DNA of 26,360 nucleotides from positions 1-26,360 of the IMG/VR virus record IMGVR_UViG_3300046000_007893; one strand, written 5' to 3'. The notes beneath the pieces are model-generated. The model was not told the DNA's origin and made no database searches. It saw only the letters and a program-made list of their open reading frames with translations. Shown here in pieces: positions 8,750 through 20,136 of the stretch; within the stretch, counting starts at the first letter, position 1, and every line of letters begins with the position of its first letter. Both the position numbers and the translations under genes were made by a program. Origin of the DNA: a virus.

Positions 8750-9123
8750 TGCCGTTCAAGGACGCCAAGGTCCGAGCGGCACGCCAGCGCGAGTACTCGC
8801 GTCGCTGGTATTTGAAGAACGCCCAGCAAGTCATCAAACAAAGCGGCACCCGCCGCGCCTCGGTCAAGAAGGCGTGGCTCGACTACCGATCCAAACAGTC
8901 CTGTTCGCACTGCGGTTTCTCCCATCCCGCGGTGATCGACTTCCACCACGTGATCCGCCATAACAAGCGTTCCGTGAACGATCTCATCCTCAAGCAAAAC
9001 AACCTCAAGGAGGCCATTAAGGAGGCGGAGGAGAAGTGCATCCCCCTCTGCGCGAATTGCCACCGGATCTTGCACTTCGAGGAAAGGCGGGTTATAAGGG
9101 TGAGGAGAAAGAAGAAAGCATGA
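8749..9123 (+). CDS. HNH endonuclease, 124 aa
   Basis: A probable metal-dependent DNA nuclease with a beta-beta-alpha-metal fold. SCSHCGF gives a zinc-binding Cys52/Cys55 pair, VIDFHHV gives the catalytic His66/His67, and IPLCANCHRILHF gives the second Cys101/Cys104 pair with His105 and His109. The N-terminus is basic (RAARQREYSRRWYLKN), suited to DNA contact, and the C-terminus is a run of Arg/Lys. GTG 8749 overlaps the acetyltransferase stop as TAGTG. It is small and could be a free-standing homing-type endonuclease. A packaging HNH protein is less likely because the terminase lies elsewhere. Confidence 0.88.
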   Translation: MPFKDAKVRAARQREYSRRWYLKNAQQVIKQSGTRRASVKKAWLDYRSKQSCSHCGFSHPAVIDFHHVIRHNKRSVNDLILKQNNLKEAIKEAEEKCIPLCANCHRILHFEERRVIRVRRKKKA

Positions 9124-12317: not shown

Positions 12318-12533
12318 ATGTTAAGAGTTGATTCGGGCATCCCTATCCCCGCCGAAGCCCAGCGGGAGAAGTACCCCTTCCCTGTGATGGCCGTGGGGGA
12401 CAGTTTCCTGTTGGCCGATGCTGAGTCGGCGAAGAACGCTCGCAGCGCCGCGTGGATGTACTCCAAGCGCCACGGGACGAAGTTCTCGTGTCGGAAGGTT
12501 GAGGACGGTTGGCGGGTCTGGAGAGTCGCATGA
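12318..12533 (+). CDS. Small conserved phage protein (DUF7303-like), 71 aa
   Basis: Function unknown. The reading frame is open from GTG 12267, but ATG 12318 gives the start that fits the family pattern: MLRVDSGIPIPAEA, then YPFPVMAVGDSFLL, then helix AKNARSAAWMYSKRHGTKF and a VEDGWRVWRV end. Small phage proteins with 'GIPIP ... YPF ... VGDSF ... RVWR' are common and lack a known role. They are plausible regulators, since the gene sits alone between the origin-like region and the terminase. No good ribosome binding site precedes either start, so the start is uncertain. The stop overlaps the terminase ATG (12530). Confidence 0.7.
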   Translation: MLRVDSGIPIPAEAQREKYPFPVMAVGDSFLLADAESAKNARSAAWMYSKRHGTKFSCRKVEDGWRVWRVA

Positions 12534-13234
12534 AGATGCGGACCAAGGCCGACCAGGAATTCAGCAAGAAGGTTGGCAGGGGAATCAGCACCCCGACGTT
12601 GGAGAGGTTGGCGCGGCCCGTGAAGCCACACAAGAACCGTGAGCTGACGACGCAGGAATGGAAGTTCGTCAACGAGTTCGTCGCGGGGGACGGGCACGTT
12701 ACGCTTAAAGAGGCCGTGGTCCGTGCGGGGTGGCCCGAGAAGAACGCCAAGCGCAAGGCCGAGGACTTAACCAACCCCGACATTAACCCGCACATTGTCG
12801 CGGCGATCCAGAAAGCCCGAGCGGAGATGGCCGAGAAGTACGGCACGACCTACGAACGGCACATGAGAGACCTACAGGTCATTCGTGACCAGGCTTTGGC
12901 CGCGGGAGCCTATGGCGCGGCGGTGCAGGCCGAGTACCGTCGAGGGCAGGCCCTCGGCACGATCTACATCGACCGTAAGGAGATTCGGCACGGCACGATC
13001 GACTCCATGAGCAAGGAGGAGGTCATGCGCAAACTCGAGGAGATCAAAAAGCTCTACGGCAACGGCAGCCCGATCATCGACGTAACGCCGCAGCAGGTAG
13101 AGGAGAGCCTTGAGGAGCCGATCCAGTTAGAGCACGACGACCCCGAGGAGGAAGAGGATGCCGTCGAAGCCCGAGACGAGCCTGTATCAAAGGCTAAAGG
13201 AAAACCTCCCAAACTGCCTTATTACCCGGATTGA
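12530..13234 (+). CDS. terS: Terminase small subunit, 234 aa
   Basis: Binds the packaging site on phage DNA and delivers it to the large subunit. Residues about 38-85 have ELTTQEWKFVNEFV followed by LKEAVVRAGWPEKNAKRKAEDL, the helix-turn-helix arrangement of the Terminase_2 family. A helical oligomerisation segment follows (RAEMAEKYGTTYERHMRDLQ, AVQAEYRRGQALGTIYIDRKE). The C-terminal about 50 residues are very acidic then basic (DDPEEEEDAVEA, KAKGKPPK). ATG 12530 overlaps the previous stop. The last 77 bases overlap the nuclease gene in another frame. The large subunit gene lies 5.4 kb further on, separated by an acquired cassette, whereas the two are usually adjacent. Confidence 0.82.
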   Translation: MKMRTKADQEFSKKVGRGISTPTLERLARPVKPHKNRELTTQEWKFVNEFVAGDGHVTLKEAVVRAGWPEKNAKRKAEDLTNPDINPHIVAAIQKARAEMAEKYGTTYERHMRDLQVIRDQALAAGAYGAAVQAEYRRGQALGTIYIDRKEIRHGTIDSMSKEEVMRKLEEIKKLYGNGSPIIDVTPQQVEESLEEPIQLEHDDPEEEEDAVEARDEPVSKAKGKPPKLPYYPD

Positions 13235-13580
13235 GTCGCGAGTCGGGCTAGGTATCCCAGACTGTTTCATCGCGTTCAAGCAAACGGGTGAGTTTGTCCC
13301 GGTTGAGCTCAAGGTGGTGAAGAAGGGCCGCAAGGTCAATCTGTCGCCGCATCAGATTGCTTTCCATGCGCGCCATGCGGAGCTCGGAGTGCGGACGTTC
13401 GTCTTGGTGTTGTACGTCCCACCTGGGAAGGTCGCATCGAAAGAGGGAAAGCTATTACTGTATTCGGGCGCACAGATTTTTGAATTAGTGAAGTCGGGCG
13501 TGGATACTGATCCTGTTGCGAGTTATCACTACGGTGCGGTTCCGTGGAATATGTTGATGTTCACACTTGCAGAGGCGTGA
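13158..13580 (+). CDS. PD-(D/E)xK (VRR-NUC-like) nuclease, 140 aa
   Basis: A predicted Holliday-junction-resolvase-like or structure-specific DNA nuclease. Motifs in order: RIESRVGLGIPDCFIAF with Glu26 and the catalytic Pro34-Asp35, then VPVELKVVKKGRKVNLSPHQ with Glu50-x-Lys52 and Gln66, matching the PD-(D/E)xK core. ATG 13158 follows GAGGAG at about 13145-13150. It starts 77 bases inside the terminase small-subunit gene, a long overlap that couples the two. This suggests a role in resolving branched replication intermediates before packaging. Length is typical for a single-domain member of this group. Confidence 0.88.
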   Translation: MPSKPETSLYQRLKENLPNCLITRIESRVGLGIPDCFIAFKQTGEFVPVELKVVKKGRKVNLSPHQIAFHARHAELGVRTFVLVLYVPPGKVASKEGKLLLYSGAQIFELVKSGVDTDPVASYHYGAVPWNMLMFTLAEA

Positions 13581-15574: not shown

Positions 15575-17020
15575 ATGGTCATGTTTGATTCTGTTTTTTT
15601 TCGTTCTCGCGTCTCTGATCCTGCTCGTATCGGGCCGTTCGCCGAGCTCATCGCCGAGCGTCTCGATGCTGCCGGAACGTCTCGCGATTTCTCCCGATGG
15701 ATGGCGTCGTTTTCTCGATGCGTCGAGCGCGGATTCTCTCGCGTGGGCGATGCTCCTACTGATGACAATCTCGCTGCGTTCGCGGGGCTCGTCGCGGAAG
15801 CGGCGACTCGTCGCGGGATTCATTCTCCCGAGATGGTGCGGACGTTCTGGGAACAGGGCGACCGTTTATATCGCACCATTTCGACGGATACGCTGCGCGA
15901 ATGGCTCGACGTTGCGGAGGATGCGTCGAACGATTTTGACCGCGAGTTCATGCTTGAGGAAATAAACGAGCGCGGATCGCGTAGCGCGTGTGAGTGTTGC
16001 GGCGAGATGTTCTTCGATGACGATCTCGAACGGGCCTATGGAGACGATCTCGTCTGTGAGCGTTGCCGGGATCGTTCCTATCAATACTCGGAGCGATATG
16101 GCGCATGGATTCACGATGAGTATGCGCGGCGAGCTCTCAACGAACGGGGTCGGCCTTGCGTCATCCATTGCGACGATGAGGATTTCAGCTATGACGAGGA
16201 CGAGGACGAATACGTTCATCAAGACTATGAGAGCCCGTCGCGCTCGATCATCCGCGACTATCACGCCTCGAAGCGTTCGCAGGTTCCCATTTCGGACGAT
16301 TGGACGGTCGCGGCAAATCGCCATCTAGGGGTCGAGCTCGAAGTCGAGTGCACAGGGGCGCGGGATCGCACGACGATCGCGGCGGGAATCCATGAGGCCG
16401 TCAACGGGGGCGTATACGGTCATCGCATGTTCTTCGAGCGCGATGGGTCGCTCGCTGACGGGTTCGAGATGATCTCGCAGCCCATGAGTCTCCCGGCCTT
16501 GCGCGAGGTGTTCTCGTTTCTGCGTCGGCCCGAACTGGTCGCGGGGATTCGTTCGCATCGGACGAGCACATGCGGGCTGCATGTTCATGTATCGCGGACG
16601 GGCCTCTCGAATCTCACCATCGCTCGGGCGGTCACGTTCGTGAACGATCCGGGAAACGATGCGTTCATTACCGCAATCGCTCGACGCTACAACACGGGGT
16701 TCTGTCGGTATGTCGAAAAGGTCGTCGAGACGGCCCACTTGCCGGGGGATCGGTACGAGGCTGTCAACCTCACCAATGCGAACACCATCGAGTTTCGTAT
16801 CTTTCGCGGGTCGCTCAAGTACGAGGCCGTGGTCGCGGCCATGGAGTTCTGTCACGCGCTGCTCGAATTCTGCGCTCGCGAGAGTACGACGGCCTCGGGC
16901 CTCAATGCTCGGGCGTTCTTGGCGTTCTGCGCGGCCTCGATGTCTGACGAGACGGCGACGATGCGGCGGTATGTCTCGGAGCGAACGGCGGGTCTATTTC
17001 AACACTCAGAAGCGGCCTAA
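15575..17020 (+). CDS. Amidoligase-family protein with zinc ribbon, 481 aa
   Basis: Predicted ATP-dependent carboxylate-amine ligase of the putative amidoligase family (glutamine-synthetase-like fold), forming an amide or peptide bond on an unknown substrate. Domains in order: a helical N-terminal region (1-130); a zinc ribbon with C139/C142 and C161/C164; an acidic linker (200-220, DEDEDEYV); and the ligase core. The core shows GVELEVE (Glu254, Glu256, Glu258), ERDGS (290-292), GFEMISQP (Glu298), CGLHVHVS (His336, His338), NLTNANTIEFRIFRGS (Glu406, Arg408, Arg411). These are the metal- and ATP-binding positions expected for the family. A class II glutamine amidotransferase gene follows 20 bases later, suggesting an ammonia supply. 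The ribosome binding site is AAGAGG at 15561-15566. Target unknown. Confidence 0.85.
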   Translation: MVMFDSVFFRSRVSDPARIGPFAELIAERLDAAGTSRDFSRWMASFSRCVERGFSRVGDAPTDDNLAAFAGLVAEAATRRGIHSPEMVRTFWEQGDRLYRTISTDTLREWLDVAEDASNDFDREFMLEEINERGSRSACECCGEMFFDDDLERAYGDDLVCERCRDRSYQYSERYGAWIHDEYARRALNERGRPCVIHCDDEDFSYDEDEDEYVHQDYESPSRSIIRDYHASKRSQVPISDDWTVAANRHLGVELEVECTGARDRTTIAAGIHEAVNGGVYGHRMFFERDGSLADGFEMISQPMSLPALREVFSFLRRPELVAGIRSHRTSTCGLHVHVSRTGLSNLTIARAVTFVNDPGNDAFITAIARRYNTGFCRYVEKVVETAHLPGDRYEAVNLTNANTIEFRIFRGSLKYEAVVAAMEFCHALLEFCARESTTASGLNARAFLAFCAASMSDETATMRRYVSERTAGLFQHSEAA

Positions 17021-17040
17021 CGGCCTCGGAGGTTTTCATC

Positions 17041-17961
17041 ATGTGCTTACTAGTTCATCAGCCGGCCTCGACTCGTTTCTCTGACGAGTTTTTGGTCGAT
17101 GTCTACTCGGCGAATCGCGACGGTCTCGGGGTCATGTTCTCGGAGGGCGGCAAGCTGCACGTTCACAAGGTGCTGCCGAAAACGTCTAGCGAATTTGTCG
17201 ATTTCTATCGGGCCCATGCGGAGGGCCGCGAGTGCGTGTGGCACGCTCGGATGATGACTCACGGCGATATCAATTTCGACAACTGTCACCCCTACCGGGT
17301 GACGGATCGGGTTTATCTCGCGCACAACGGCATCCTTTCGACGGGTAACGATTGGGACAAGTCGCGCTCGGATACTTGGCATTTCATCCGTAACGTCATC
17401 GGCCCGGTCATCGAGGCGCGTGAGTCGTTGCTACTTGATAACGAGTGGCTCTCGTTCGTCGGTGATCTCATCGGAAGCGGTAACAAGTTCGGCATGATGA
17501 GCGCGGACGGTACGGTCGCAATCATCAACCGGAAGTCGGGTGTTACCTATGCCGGGGCGTGGTTGTCGAATACCTACGCATGGTCGGCCCATCGTTTCGG
17601 CGTGGCCTCGGCCCCTGCGCGTTCGTATTCGAGCTCGCCGATCTGGTCGAGTGCTTACGGCTACGGCCTCGACGATGACGAGCTCGATGCGTACTCGCTG
17701 ACGAGCTCGCGGTCGAGCTCGAAGGCCTCGCGCTCGGGCGGTGATTCTCTTTTGAAAATCACTCGGGCGGCCCGTAACTCTTACGAGCGCGGGACGCTCG
17801 CTCAATGGGTGCAGGACGCGCCATCGAAGGCCTCGCGGTTACTCTCTGCCATCGAGGATGACCCCACGGGCGCGACAGGTGAGCGCGTCTACAAAAATCC
17901 CGATTGGGTGGTTGAGTGCATCGGCGAATACTTCGACGCGGAGGCTTCGGCGTTTCAGTAG
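17041..17961 (+). CDS. Class II glutamine amidotransferase (Ntn hydrolase), 306 aa
   Basis: Predicted to hydrolyse glutamine and release ammonia. The chain starts Met-Cys, so removal of Met exposes Cys2 as N-terminal nucleophile. Family motifs follow: HARMMTHG (Arg70, Thr73, Gly75), NCHPY (81-85), LAHNGIL (His95, Asn96, Gly97) and SDT (110-112). The Ntn domain covers about residues 1-190. A Ser-rich linker (SSSKASRSGG) and a helical C-terminal segment follow and have no clear match. GGAGG at 17030-17034 precedes ATG 17041. It is cotranscribed with the amidoligase and ends at a terminator at 17986. Together they resemble predicted amide-forming modification pairs. Alone it could be a stand-alone glutaminase. 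Confidence 0.9.
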   Translation: MCLLVHQPASTRFSDEFLVDVYSANRDGLGVMFSEGGKLHVHKVLPKTSSEFVDFYRAHAEGRECVWHARMMTHGDINFDNCHPYRVTDRVYLAHNGILSTGNDWDKSRSDTWHFIRNVIGPVIEARESLLLDNEWLSFVGDLIGSGNKFGMMSADGTVAIINRKSGVTYAGAWLSNTYAWSAHRFGVASAPARSYSSSPIWSSAYGYGLDDDELDAYSLTSSRSSSKASRSGGDSLLKITRAARNSYERGTLAQWVQDAPSKASRLLSAIEDDPTGATGERVYKNPDWVVECIGEYFDAEASAFQ

Positions 17962-17985
17962 TCGAGCTCGATGTCGAGCGCGGAG

Positions 17986-18008
17986 ACGGCCCCATTCGGG
18001 GCCGTTTT
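17986..18008 (+). terminator. Intrinsic terminator of the amidoligase-glutaminase operon
   Basis: ACGGCCCC (17986-17993) pairs perfectly with GGGGCCGT (17998-18005) across a 4-base loop, followed by TTTT and TTT (to about 18013). It lies 24 bases after the stop at 17961. Confidence 0.88.
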
Positions 18009-18013
18009 CGTTT

Positions 18014-18480
18014 CTAGGGGTGCGTCATGCTCCCGGCGCGGTCGCGTCTCTGCGGCCTTCTCTGTGCGTCGGGTATTCATTCTCCGGTCTCGGTTCTCGG
18101 TGCTCGATGACGAGCTCGGGCGCGTCGGCCTCCCGTTGTCGGCCTCGATCTCTGGGCCCGGTCGTACTTGGCCTCGGCCCGTGGGCCGTGGTTCGTGCGG
18201 CGGTGCTCGCGGTATTCACTCCCGGCCCGTGGCGCGTGAGCTGCTGCGCGTCGGCCTTCGAGCGCGGCCCGTGGGCCGTGTTGCGTTGACCAGGTACTCG
18301 CTCGAGCTCGCCGATCCTGGCCTCGAGTTTGACCAGGTACTCGCTCGAGCTCGCCGATCCGTGGGCCGTGGCGCGTGGTTCGCGGGCCGTGGTTCGCGGG
18401 TTGCGGGCCTTCGAGCTCGGGCCGTGGGCCGTGGCTTGCGGGCCTTCGCTCACGATCGCCGACGAACGTCGGCAGCTTGC
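18014..18480. repeat. Repeat-rich GC-biased non-coding stretch
   Basis: No credible gene. The decamer GTGGGCCGTG occurs at 18181, 18271, 18361 and 18424, the first three exactly 90 bases apart. CGGGCCGTGG-like words are scattered between them. GAGCTCG and GGCCTCG recur, the same word bias as in the upstream cassette genes. The longest open frames on either strand change repeat phase between frames, start without ribosome binding sites and encode only low-complexity Arg/Pro/Gly/His. It may be decayed cassette DNA or a replication/recombination hotspot. Confidence 0.6.
18286..18360 (+). repeat. Exact 32-base direct repeat, two copies with 43-base period
   Basis: Bases 18286-18317 are repeated exactly at 18329-18360. 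Each copy starts TTGACCAGGTACTCG and ends GCTCGCCGATCC. The 11-base spacer is not repeated. A 43-base period is not a multiple of three, so the duplication does not preserve a reading frame, which argues against a coding origin. Confidence 0.95.
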
Positions 18481-18527
18481 CGCCCCAAAAAACGCGGCGC
18501 TTCACAAAGGCAAGGGCTTTTGCCCGA

Positions 18528-18553
18528 TTTCACACAGCCAATATGCTGTGAAA
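18528..18553. other. Inverted repeat resembling separated parS half-sites
   Basis: TTTCACACAGC (18528-18538) and GCTGTGAAA (18545-18553) pair with a 2-base bulge around CAATAT. The outer parts, TTTCAC and GTGAAAC, equal the arms of a Bacillus-type parS site pulled apart by 14 bases. It lies 7 bases before a complete parS-like palindrome. It might be a secondary ParB contact or just a hairpin. Confidence 0.35.
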
Positions 18554-18560
18554 CACTTTT

Positions 18561-18576
18561 GGTTCCACGTGGAACA
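18561..18576. promoter_or_regulatory. parS-like centromere site (ParB binding)
   Basis: The 16 bases on the minus strand read TGTTCCACGTGGAACC. This is the chromosomal parS sequence as I know it from Pseudomonas and one base from TGTTCCACGTGGAACA. The inner 14 bases, 18562-18575, are a perfect palindrome. It sits in the intergenic region about 100 bases before the terminase large-subunit gene. No other copy was seen in the window and no parA or parB gene is present, so host ParB would be the natural partner. Confidence 0.75.
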
Positions 18577-18613
18577 TGACCCCCGGCCCCCGCCGGTAGA
18601 AAAACAGGCCCGG

Positions 18614-18631
18614 GTTGATCAACTTGTCAAC
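18614..18631. repeat. GTTGATCAAC palindrome plus GTCAAC (operator-like), site C
   Basis: GTTGATCAAC (18614-18623) is a perfect palindrome and is followed by GTCAAC (18626-18631). Read on the minus strand this gives GTTGAC then GTTGAT at an 8-base period, the same layout as sites A and B. It lies 42 bases before the terminase start. No clear promoter was found here. Confidence 0.4.
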
Positions 18632-18635
18632 TCGT

Positions 18636-18648
18636 GCAAAAATTTTGC
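18636..18648. other. GCAAAAATTTTGC palindrome before the terminase gene
   Basis: A 13-base near-perfect palindrome (arms GCAAAA and TTTTGC about one central A) 24 bases before ATG 18673. It could be a protein-binding site or part of the leader structure. There is no direct evidence for either. Confidence 0.3.
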
Positions 18649-18672
18649 GCATATGAAAAGCAATTGGACCCC

Positions 18673-20136
18673 ATGAGCGCCGTTCCGAAGGAGATCGAGG
18701 AGGAGCGTCTGCGGCTGGAATACCGGCTAATGCTGCTCGAGACGCAGGACAAGGCGCGCAAGAACTTCATCGATTTCGTGCGGTACGTGTGGCCGGCCGC
18801 GATCCTTGGTGAGCATCACCGCCGCATGGCAAGTGCATTCGATCGCATTGCCAACGGGACGCTGAAGCGGCTGATCGTGAACATGCCGCCCCGGCATACG
18901 AAGTCAGAGTTCGCGTCGTATCTGCTTCCCGCGTATCTCATGGGCCGCAACCCGAATCTCCAAGCCCTTGAAGCGACACACACGGCAGAACTAGCCGTCA
19001 AATTTGGCCGTAAAGTCCGCGACCTGATGGATTCTGACCGCTACAAGGAGCTGTTCCCGGACGTCGTGCTGAAGCAGGACAGCAAAGCAGCCGGACGCTG
19101 GGATACGAACGCAGGCGGTAGTTACTTCGCCGTCGGTGTCGGCGGTGCCGTGACCGGCCGTGGTGCGGATATCTTGATCATCGACGACCCGCACTCGGAG
19201 CAGGACGCACTGTCGGAACTGGCCTTGGACAATGCGTGGGACTGGTACCAGGGCGGTCCGCGTACCCGTTTGCAACCGGGCGGTGCGATCGTGATGGTGA
19301 TGACGCGTTGGGGCACGAAGGATCTAACCGCCCGTTTGCTCAAGGCACAGGCGAGCCGCGGGGCGGATAAATGGGAAGTGATTGAGTTCCCGGCGATCTT
19401 GCCGAGTGGTAAGCCGCTGTGGCCGGAGTTCTGGAAGCTTGAGGAGTTAGAAGCCGTCAAGGCATCGCTGTCGGTCCAGAAGTGGAACGCGATGTACCAG
19501 CAACAGCCGACGAACGATGAGGGCGCGATCCTGAAGCGTGAGTGGTGGCGCATCTGGCCTCATGAGGCCCCGCCGATCGTGAACTACATCATCCAGAGCT
19601 ATGACACTGCCTACAGCAAAAAGGAAACGGCCGACTACTCGGTGATCACGACTTGGGGCGTGTTTTACCCGGACCAAGACTCAGGGCCCAACATTGTGCT
19701 GCTCGATGTCACGCGTGGTCGGTGGGACTTTCCTGAACTGAAACGGATCGCGAAGGACGAGTACAAACGTTGGAATCCTGATAACGTATTGATCGAAGCG
19801 AAGGCGACGGGCGTGACGCTCCAGCAGGAACTGCGGCGCGTCGGTATTCCTGTCACCATGTACACACCGGGCGGCAGACGATCGGGGACGGACAAGATCA
19901 GTCGCGCGAACGCGGTCGCGCCGATCTTGGAGTCGGGGATGGTCTGGGCCCCGGACACCGATTGGGCGGAAGAGCTGGTCGAGGAGTGCGCCGCGTTCCC
20001 GAACGGCGACAATGACGACATGGTGGACTCGACGACCCAGGCGCTGATGCGGTTCCGTCAAGGGAACTTCGTGACGTTGAACACCGACGAGAAGCCGGAG
20101 CCGTCTGGACGCACGCTTGCTCCCGAATACTACTGA
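18673..20136 (+). CDS. terL: Terminase large subunit, 487 aa
   Basis: The packaging motor ATPase and nuclease that cuts and pumps phage DNA into the prohead. ATPase domain: Walker-A-like NMPPRHTKS (70-78), Walker B ILIIDDP (167-173), coupling motif MTRWG (210-214). RNase-H-like nuclease: SYDTAYSKK (Asp311), LIEAKATG (Glu375) and DNDDMVDS (Asp448/449/452) supply the metal-binding acids. Length and motif order fit the Terminase_6 family. ATG 18673 is chosen because the family starts near here; the frame is open from GTG 18634. No strong ribosome binding site is visible. The gene follows a palindrome cluster with a parS site, and the small subunit is 5.4 kb upstream. Confidence 0.96.
   Translation: MSAVPKEIEEERLRLEYRLMLLETQDKARKNFIDFVRYVWPAAILGEHHRRMASAFDRIANGTLKRLIVNMPPRHTKSEFASYLLPAYLMGRNPNLQALEATHTAELAVKFGRKVRDLMDSDRYKELFPDVVLKQDSKAAGRWDTNAGGSYFAVGVGGAVTGRGADILIIDDPHSEQDALSELALDNAWDWYQGGPRTRLQPGGAIVMVMTRWGTKDLTARLLKAQASRGADKWEVIEFPAILPSGKPLWPEFWKLEELEAVKASLSVQKWNAMYQQQPTNDEGAILKREWWRIWPHEAPPIVNYIIQSYDTAYSKKETADYSVITTWGVFYPDQDSGPNIVLLDVTRGRWDFPELKRIAKDEYKRWNPDNVLIEAKATGVTLQQELRRVGIPVTMYTPGGRRSGTDKISRANAVAPILESGMVWAPDTDWAEELVEECAAFPNGDNDDMVDSTTQALMRFRQGNFVTLNTDEKPEPSGRTLAPEYY

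Follow-up and report, generated by a model that had tools for sequence, protein, structure and literature searches.

Two groups of aquatic phages often carry a chromosomal-type parS site before their packaging genes and may borrow host ParB there

The viral DNA analyzed here (the window, a record of 26,360 bases taken at its full length) belongs to a phage that encodes a pol A-type DNA polymerase, a primase, a UvrD-type helicase and a terminase. The features on which the analysis centers are the following.

12533..13234, plus strand: terS-like gene (terminase small subunit); PHROG 51, E 2.5e-6; Pfam Terminase_2, E 0.0033, under its cut-off
13158..13580, plus strand: small nuclease-like protein; PHROG 2165, E 7.2e-14 (annotated as DNA helicase); PHROG 5702, Holliday junction resolvase, E 0.0029; no Pfam match
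17962..18672, no strand assigned: stretch of 711 bp before terL, following an open reading frame that ends at 17961; holds the site and GC-rich repeats; no family match found
18561..18576, minus strand: parS-type site TGTTCCACGTGGAACC with a 14-bp perfect palindrome at 18562-18575; assigned from its sequence and from its occurrence at the same place in relatives
18577..18672, plus strand: spacer from the site to the terL ATG, with a TTGATCAACTTGTCAACTCGTGCAAAAATTT block; partly conserved in an alignment of relatives
18673..20136, plus strand: terL, terminase large subunit, 487 aa; PHROG 38, E 1.8e-115; Pfam Terminase_6C, E 2.4e-14

The neighboring genes at 15575-17961 gave weak matches to Amidoligase_2 and to class-II glutamine amidotransferases. 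The stretch that follows them contains GC-rich direct repeats (GGCCGTGGGCCGTGG-like units at 18112-18454, before terL), including two exact 32-nt copies 43 bp apart, and an inverted repeat, CACAGC-N6-GCTGTG, for which a hairpin is predicted, lies just 5' of the site at 18533-18550. Two open reading frames overlap the site (17971-18579 and 18329-18676); neither had a Pfam match, the former had no PHROG match either, and we did not take them as genes. The spacer is possibly a late promoter; a sigma-70 scan of positions 17800-18900 returned no promoter-like site.

The minus strand at 18561-18576 can be read directly from the window as the parS-type site TGTTCCACGTGGAACC, within which the 14-mer GTTCCACGTGGAAC is a perfect palindrome. 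The 16-mer differs from the symmetric form TGTTCCACGTGGAACA at one outer base, and it matches 15 of 16 bases of the M. xanthus consensus TGTTCCACGTGGAACG (PMC3899335). Chromosomal parS sites share a 16-bp consensus with the core GTTYCACGTGRAAC, and the window site fits both. It starts 111-112 bp upstream of the terL ATG, its center lying about 105 bp upstream. A preliminary description of this DNA had claimed a parS site adjoining the terminase gene and a 14-base perfect palindrome within it, and both claims are confirmed at these positions; the search for further copies that it had proposed yielded none, as the whole record contains no second parS-like match when up to two mismatches are allowed. 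Palindromy alone is unremarkable in the window, because two more 14-bp perfect palindromes occur there (8788-8801 and 19556-19569); the parS identity is the remarkable part. A simple calculation that assumes equal base frequencies gives about 4e-4 expected occurrences per 26 kb for the four sequences covered by GTTYCACGTGRAAC, and the family-wide evidence against chance is much stronger than this expectation.

The nearest named relatives by TerL identity are DSL-LC04 (76%), 023Pt_psg01 (61%) and the Pelagibacter phages HTVC027P (60%) and HTVC023P (56%). TerL relatives were collected in four viral scans, seeded with the TerL of the window (best 80 of 347), HTVC027P (best 80 of 519), DSL-LC04 (best 80 of 86) and L088 (best 80 of at least 600); 302 loci, out of 323 sequences searched, had a TerL match of at least 300 bits, with a few contigs represented twice. 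Across these 302 loci the exact motif GTTYCACGTGRAAC was found 82 times in the 82,377 bp that make up the 300 bp before terL and 15 times in 2,871,767 bp elsewhere, an enrichment of about 190-fold that must be read with the knowledge that the window and L088 were chosen as seeds because they bear the site. These counts bear out the earlier claim that a chance occurrence is very unlikely. When loci with at least 150 bp of upstream sequence were clustered at 92% DNA identity, 52 of 141 terL clusters, distributed over two phage clades, had at least one member with an upstream site and 89 had none, so that conservation in the same place among related phages, which the preliminary description had proposed to check, is indeed observed. 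With a single representative per cluster, the site was present in 50 or 49 of the 141, depending on the representative chosen. As a control, we permuted the half-sites: 1,255 of 1,260 permuted palindromes scored zero, and the remaining five were parS itself (50/141 representatives) and four of its sub-variants, indicating selection on the parS motif rather than on any palindrome, with the caveat that two seed queries were site-bearing.

The position of the site relative to terL was -34 to -136 in nearly all cases, with one at -257. Duplicated sites, spaced 23-24 bp apart, occur in nine marine loci, and in L373 one of the two copies is intact and the other decayed. Among 35 whole records, the motif occurred in 13, in one place each, and a backward control pattern in none. 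The seeds differed in their yield: none of the 80 loci found with HTVC027P had an upstream site and five had sites elsewhere, and the DSL-LC04 set had an upstream site in L293 and in L163, the latter already recovered with the window seed. Conservation within five hand-picked groups is not taken as proof, since their rows were chosen as site-bearing; in one of them, marine55, the site scored 0.49 against 0.82 for its surroundings because the single-copy rows gap the second copy, which is the one measured.

Variation within the motif was assessed in 59 CACGTG-centered 16-mers that lie no more than 160 bp from terL; the cluster representatives from which they come had been picked with a preference for site-bearing members. 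An exact fit to GTTY..RAAC is seen in 55 of these, and of the other four, three have two mismatches and one has a single mismatch; in the reverse search the center of GTTY-N6-RAAC was CACGTG in 55 of 56. The variable arm positions pair as C-G in 18 sites, as T-A in 35 and as mixed pairs in six (four C-A, two T-G), and 36 of the 59 have T..A as their outer pair. The arms are GTTTCAC or GTTCCAC, and this set of accepted variants coincides with the half-sites most preferred by P. aeruginosa ParB, GTTCCAC and GTTTCAC (PMC10419367). For M. xanthus, one 16-bp site suffices for ParB binding in a gel shift, and a mutated site is barely bound (PMC3899335).

The site is not universal among close relatives. 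L123 and L125-L127, with 99% identical TerL, have no site there, the block that holds it being replaced by other sequence, and for L123 and L125 a search of the complete contig gave no site anywhere. Before terL, no site is present in DSL-LC04 and three other named relatives (L202-L205), which make up all the named family genomes that were examined in this region. The preliminary description had held that absence from close relatives would speak against its reading; such absence is found in L123 and L125-L127, and the site is kept in many other relatives. Because relatives with 99% identical TerL do without the site, it is both polymorphic and dispensable. In a quick TerL tree that was built from 141 representatives with a short search, and in which some long branches may be misplaced, the site occurs in 18 of 39 rows of the window clade and 31 of 56 rows of the L088 clade, but in none of the 46 remaining rows. 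The distribution requires at least 20 changes on this tree, compared to 40.9 in shuffles (0 of 500 shuffles were as low), so the site is inherited within clades, yet often lost or regained.

The 15 sites found elsewhere comprise six in the nuclease-like gene, four upstream at 1,040-1,042 bp, three behind the terL start and two left over (L310, L340). Those at 1,040-1,042 bp upstream of terL belong to L412, L416, L417 and L418; in the two of these four that were inspected, the marine L412 and L417, a terS-like and a nuclease-like gene lie between the site and terL, and therefore the site still heads the packaging genes. The terS-like homologue directly follows the site in both (PHROG 51, E 9.3e-9 for L412), and the window's own copy is situated about 5 kb upstream. 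In L159, L160 and L165, which have no upstream site, an open reading frame contains an exact TGTTTCACGTGAAACA, read in frame as EGGDVSRET and situated 1.9-3.4 kb past the start of terL; this fits a less place-bound role. The six matches in the nuclease-like gene (L204:15832, L226, L250, L252, L254 and L262) are exact and lie in pelagiphage homologues of the protein encoded at 13158..13580. We had considered HTVC027P as an example with a named host and set it aside: the exact site of this cultured pelagiphage, inside the small nuclease-like gene (AFHVKH), looks like a coding coincidence because homologues encode the same residues, FHVKH, with other codons, and the same applies to L226, L250, L252, L254 and L262.

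An HNH-like endonuclease gene stands right before terL, where other phages have parS, in L158, L161, L180, L182-L186, L139 and L294, of which L183 and L294 are one contig; the L158 protein matches PHROG 2340, which we take to be an HNH family. No link between this gene and absence of the site is claimed: all 10 loci with the gene within 700 bp of terL lack an exact site, but at the level of clusters p = 0.34.

For a wider view, at least 120 viral contigs (L002-L121) were fetched with the 15-mer TGTTCCACGTGGAAC, and hence represent a sample chosen for the site. In these parS-selected contigs, of the 95 sites whose left end is T, 73 have the 16th base that makes the palindrome complete, compared to a quarter by chance, and 38 of 122 sites fall in stretches without a 100-codon open reading frame, compared to 297 of 2,400 random places. 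Eleven of 120 parS-selected contigs encode a TerL with 55% or more identity to a family query, and in 7 of these 11 the site precedes the TerL match. Many of the other sites in this sample may be coding coincidences. Because ParB genes are rare in the parS-selected contigs (ParB_N in 2 of 100 checked), phages that have parS but no ParB may be more widespread.

Within the family, we found no ParB_N match in 12 records and no match to ParA-type AAA_31 or to HTH_ParB in 35 records, the window being included in each set and several records being fragments. These results agree with the earlier statement that no parA or parB lies in the window, and they extend it, as the preliminary description had proposed, to related records. 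A tyrosine integrase was found in 0 of 35 records, many of which are fragments, and no tRNA genes were found in 30 loci scanned. A genome scan for relatives (best 80 of 116) returned mostly MAG contigs from many phyla. An upstream site was present in three of these 80 loci, namely L456 and L509 (binned as Verrucomicrobiota or Verrucomicrobiales) and L504 (Rhodospirillales), which are too few and too loosely binned for either group to be named as the host. The Pelagibacteraceae genome AG-404-L13, presumably a single-cell genome, has one parS 1.5 kb from its ParB gene, and its phage contig has no site upstream of terL; the two other genomes checked beside it, both small, had no parS and no ParB_N match.

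Its sequence identity, its pattern of variation and its conserved place suggest that the site is very probably a chromosomal-type parS, at which host ParB would bind and load. With parS conserved in place and no parA or parB found in the records checked, the natural interpretation is that host ParB is recruited. The preliminary description had proposed such recruitment together with four possible roles, namely stable inheritance as an episome, a position near the segregating host origin, organization of DNA before packaging, and a decoy; the parS sequence, its constant place and the lack of parA/parB matches make the recruitment probable, and none of the roles is singled out. As a whole, the explanation that we consider best has about an even chance of being correct: host ParB would be loaded at the head of the terminase genes and would act locally. 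The role that we favor, with somewhat less than even confidence, is an action of ParB at the site on late or packaging genes. Host ParB would load at the phage parS, and ParB-CTP clamps would slide onto the neighboring DNA, as is established for ParB clamps (PMC12704722), where they would either dampen the transcription of terL and of the genes that follow it, or serve to mark or organize the packaging end of the genome. In a timer form of this mechanism, each genome having one or two parS and the pool of ParB being limited, the number of clamps per genome would fall as copies accumulate, and late genes would be released after replication. It is conceivable, if rather doubtful, that lytic aquatic phages use the host ParB-CTP clamp as a copy-number sensor: while genomes are few, ParB at parS would silence the terminase and late genes, and replication would then dilute ParB, so that silencing is released and packaging begins only once there are genomes to be packed. 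Local repression near parS has been described for the parS3 and parS4 promoters of P. aeruginosa (PMC5521831), and the ParB-like clamp KorB represses up to 1.5 kb away (PMC11790492). However, half-parS changes in P. aeruginosa gave no dominant effect on local transcription (PMC10419367), which would count against a general local transcription effect.

Other roles for a ParB-binding site must be weighed against local action. Replicating phage genomes could draw ParB off the host origin and upset host segregation and division timing to the profit of the phage. A site without parAB in the records checked agrees with this, and by the same logic parS on a multiplying SGI1 destabilizes the helper plasmid (PMC10954446); however, such a sponge would gain from many copies anywhere, whereas the 13 site-bearing records of 35 have one site each and none has two, and the place is fixed near terL, even if nine marine loci have two copies. 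We consider it unlikely. Our estimate is similarly low, if not lower, for a carrier state in which the phage genome rides host ParABS as an episome or passenger. Only parS in cis would be needed, and the parS mimics of SGI1 do so with a plasmid ParABS (PMC10954446), yet DSL-LC04, the nearest named genome, is predicted to be virulent (PMC10611076), and a stable episome is made less likely by the finding of no integrase (0/35) and no Par genes (ParA and HTH_ParB, each 0/35). Nor would segregation need a place before terL. Both a pure decoy and pure segregation are disfavored because neither needs the pre-terminase place, yet the site is about 190 times denser there.

A role in packaging would account for that place. 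Packaging often starts near terminase genes, and the site stands before terL, or before the terS-nuclease-terL series in L412 and L417, where ParB at parS might load SMC or bridge DNA and help to resolve or present concatemers near the terminase genes; we nevertheless hold this to be improbable, as site-less relatives presumably package normally. Finally, the site could resemble parS and yet have nothing to do with ParB, being an operator for some other regulator of the phage or the host, or else an RNA hairpin; this seems to us very unlikely. Its place before an operon suits an operator, and the predicted RNA fold of 18480-18672 contains the hairpin GUUCC-ACGU-GGAAC with five pairs. Yet a hairpin would let its loop vary, whereas the would-be loop CACGTG is invariant (55/56); four of 59 sites with a stem-breaking C-A pair still fit parS, no T-run terminator was found at the site, and an Rfam search of the window gave no match, on which grounds we rejected a structured RNA or intrinsic terminator. 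The accepted variants, moreover, are ParB half-sites (PMC10419367), and in alignments of relatives the site occurs on either side of possible promoter blocks recognized by eye, a variability that favors a loading site rather than a fixed operator. Local action of host ParB at the terminase genes, the reading that we prefer, has its own points against it, namely the site-less close relatives, the displaced sites of L159, L160 and L165, and the result of the sigma-70 scan, which found no promoter-like site between the site and terL.

Searches of one open-access library listed no paper that describes lytic phages with parS but no ParB, and none that describes Par-less phages in which a chromosomal-type parS is conserved at the terminase genes; the main text of a survey of HTVC023P-type phages contains neither 'parS' nor 'ParB' (PMC9599517). 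Orphan parS mimics on a mobile element are already known from SGI1 (PMC10954446). Taken together, the sequence comparisons suggest that two groups of aquatic phages, including that of the window, often carry parS before their packaging genes and may borrow host ParB there. parS is the best known bacterial centromere, and if this reading is true, its repeated occurrence before the packaging genes of Par-less phages in two clades would link host segregation to late gene control or packaging. A single 14-bp site can be mutated, so this link can be put to the test.

Among phages, a centromere-like site is also present in the genomes of parABS phages such as the mycobacteriophage RedRock and P1. 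RedRock encodes its own ParA and ParB and has eight repeats of an 8-bp motif (PMC7157519), whereas no Par genes were found in the present phages (0/12 and 0/35 records, several of them fragments). The chromosomal parS of M. xanthus and P. aeruginosa shares with the phage site its palindrome of 14-16 bp and both half-site variants (PMC3899335, PMC10419367), and typically belongs near oriC and parAB; the window, in contrast, is a virus record with no Par match, and the phage site lies away from any oriC or parAB, mostly as a single copy before terL. Silencing by KorB at OB in RK2 provides a parallel for local action, in that a ParB-type CTP clamp acts on promoters up to 1.5 kb off (PMC11790492), with the differences that KorB is plasmid-encoded and has KorA as a partner, while in the present phages the site alone is known. 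SGI1 mimics a plasmid parS in order to be partitioned, whereas the phage site is of the chromosomal type and is situated at terminase genes in phages for which no integrase was found. SGI1 is still the closest precedent: like these phages, it is a mobile element that carries parS without parAB of its own, and its parS-like elements bind the ParB of another replicon, a plasmid, and hijack the IncC ParABS system (PMC10954446).
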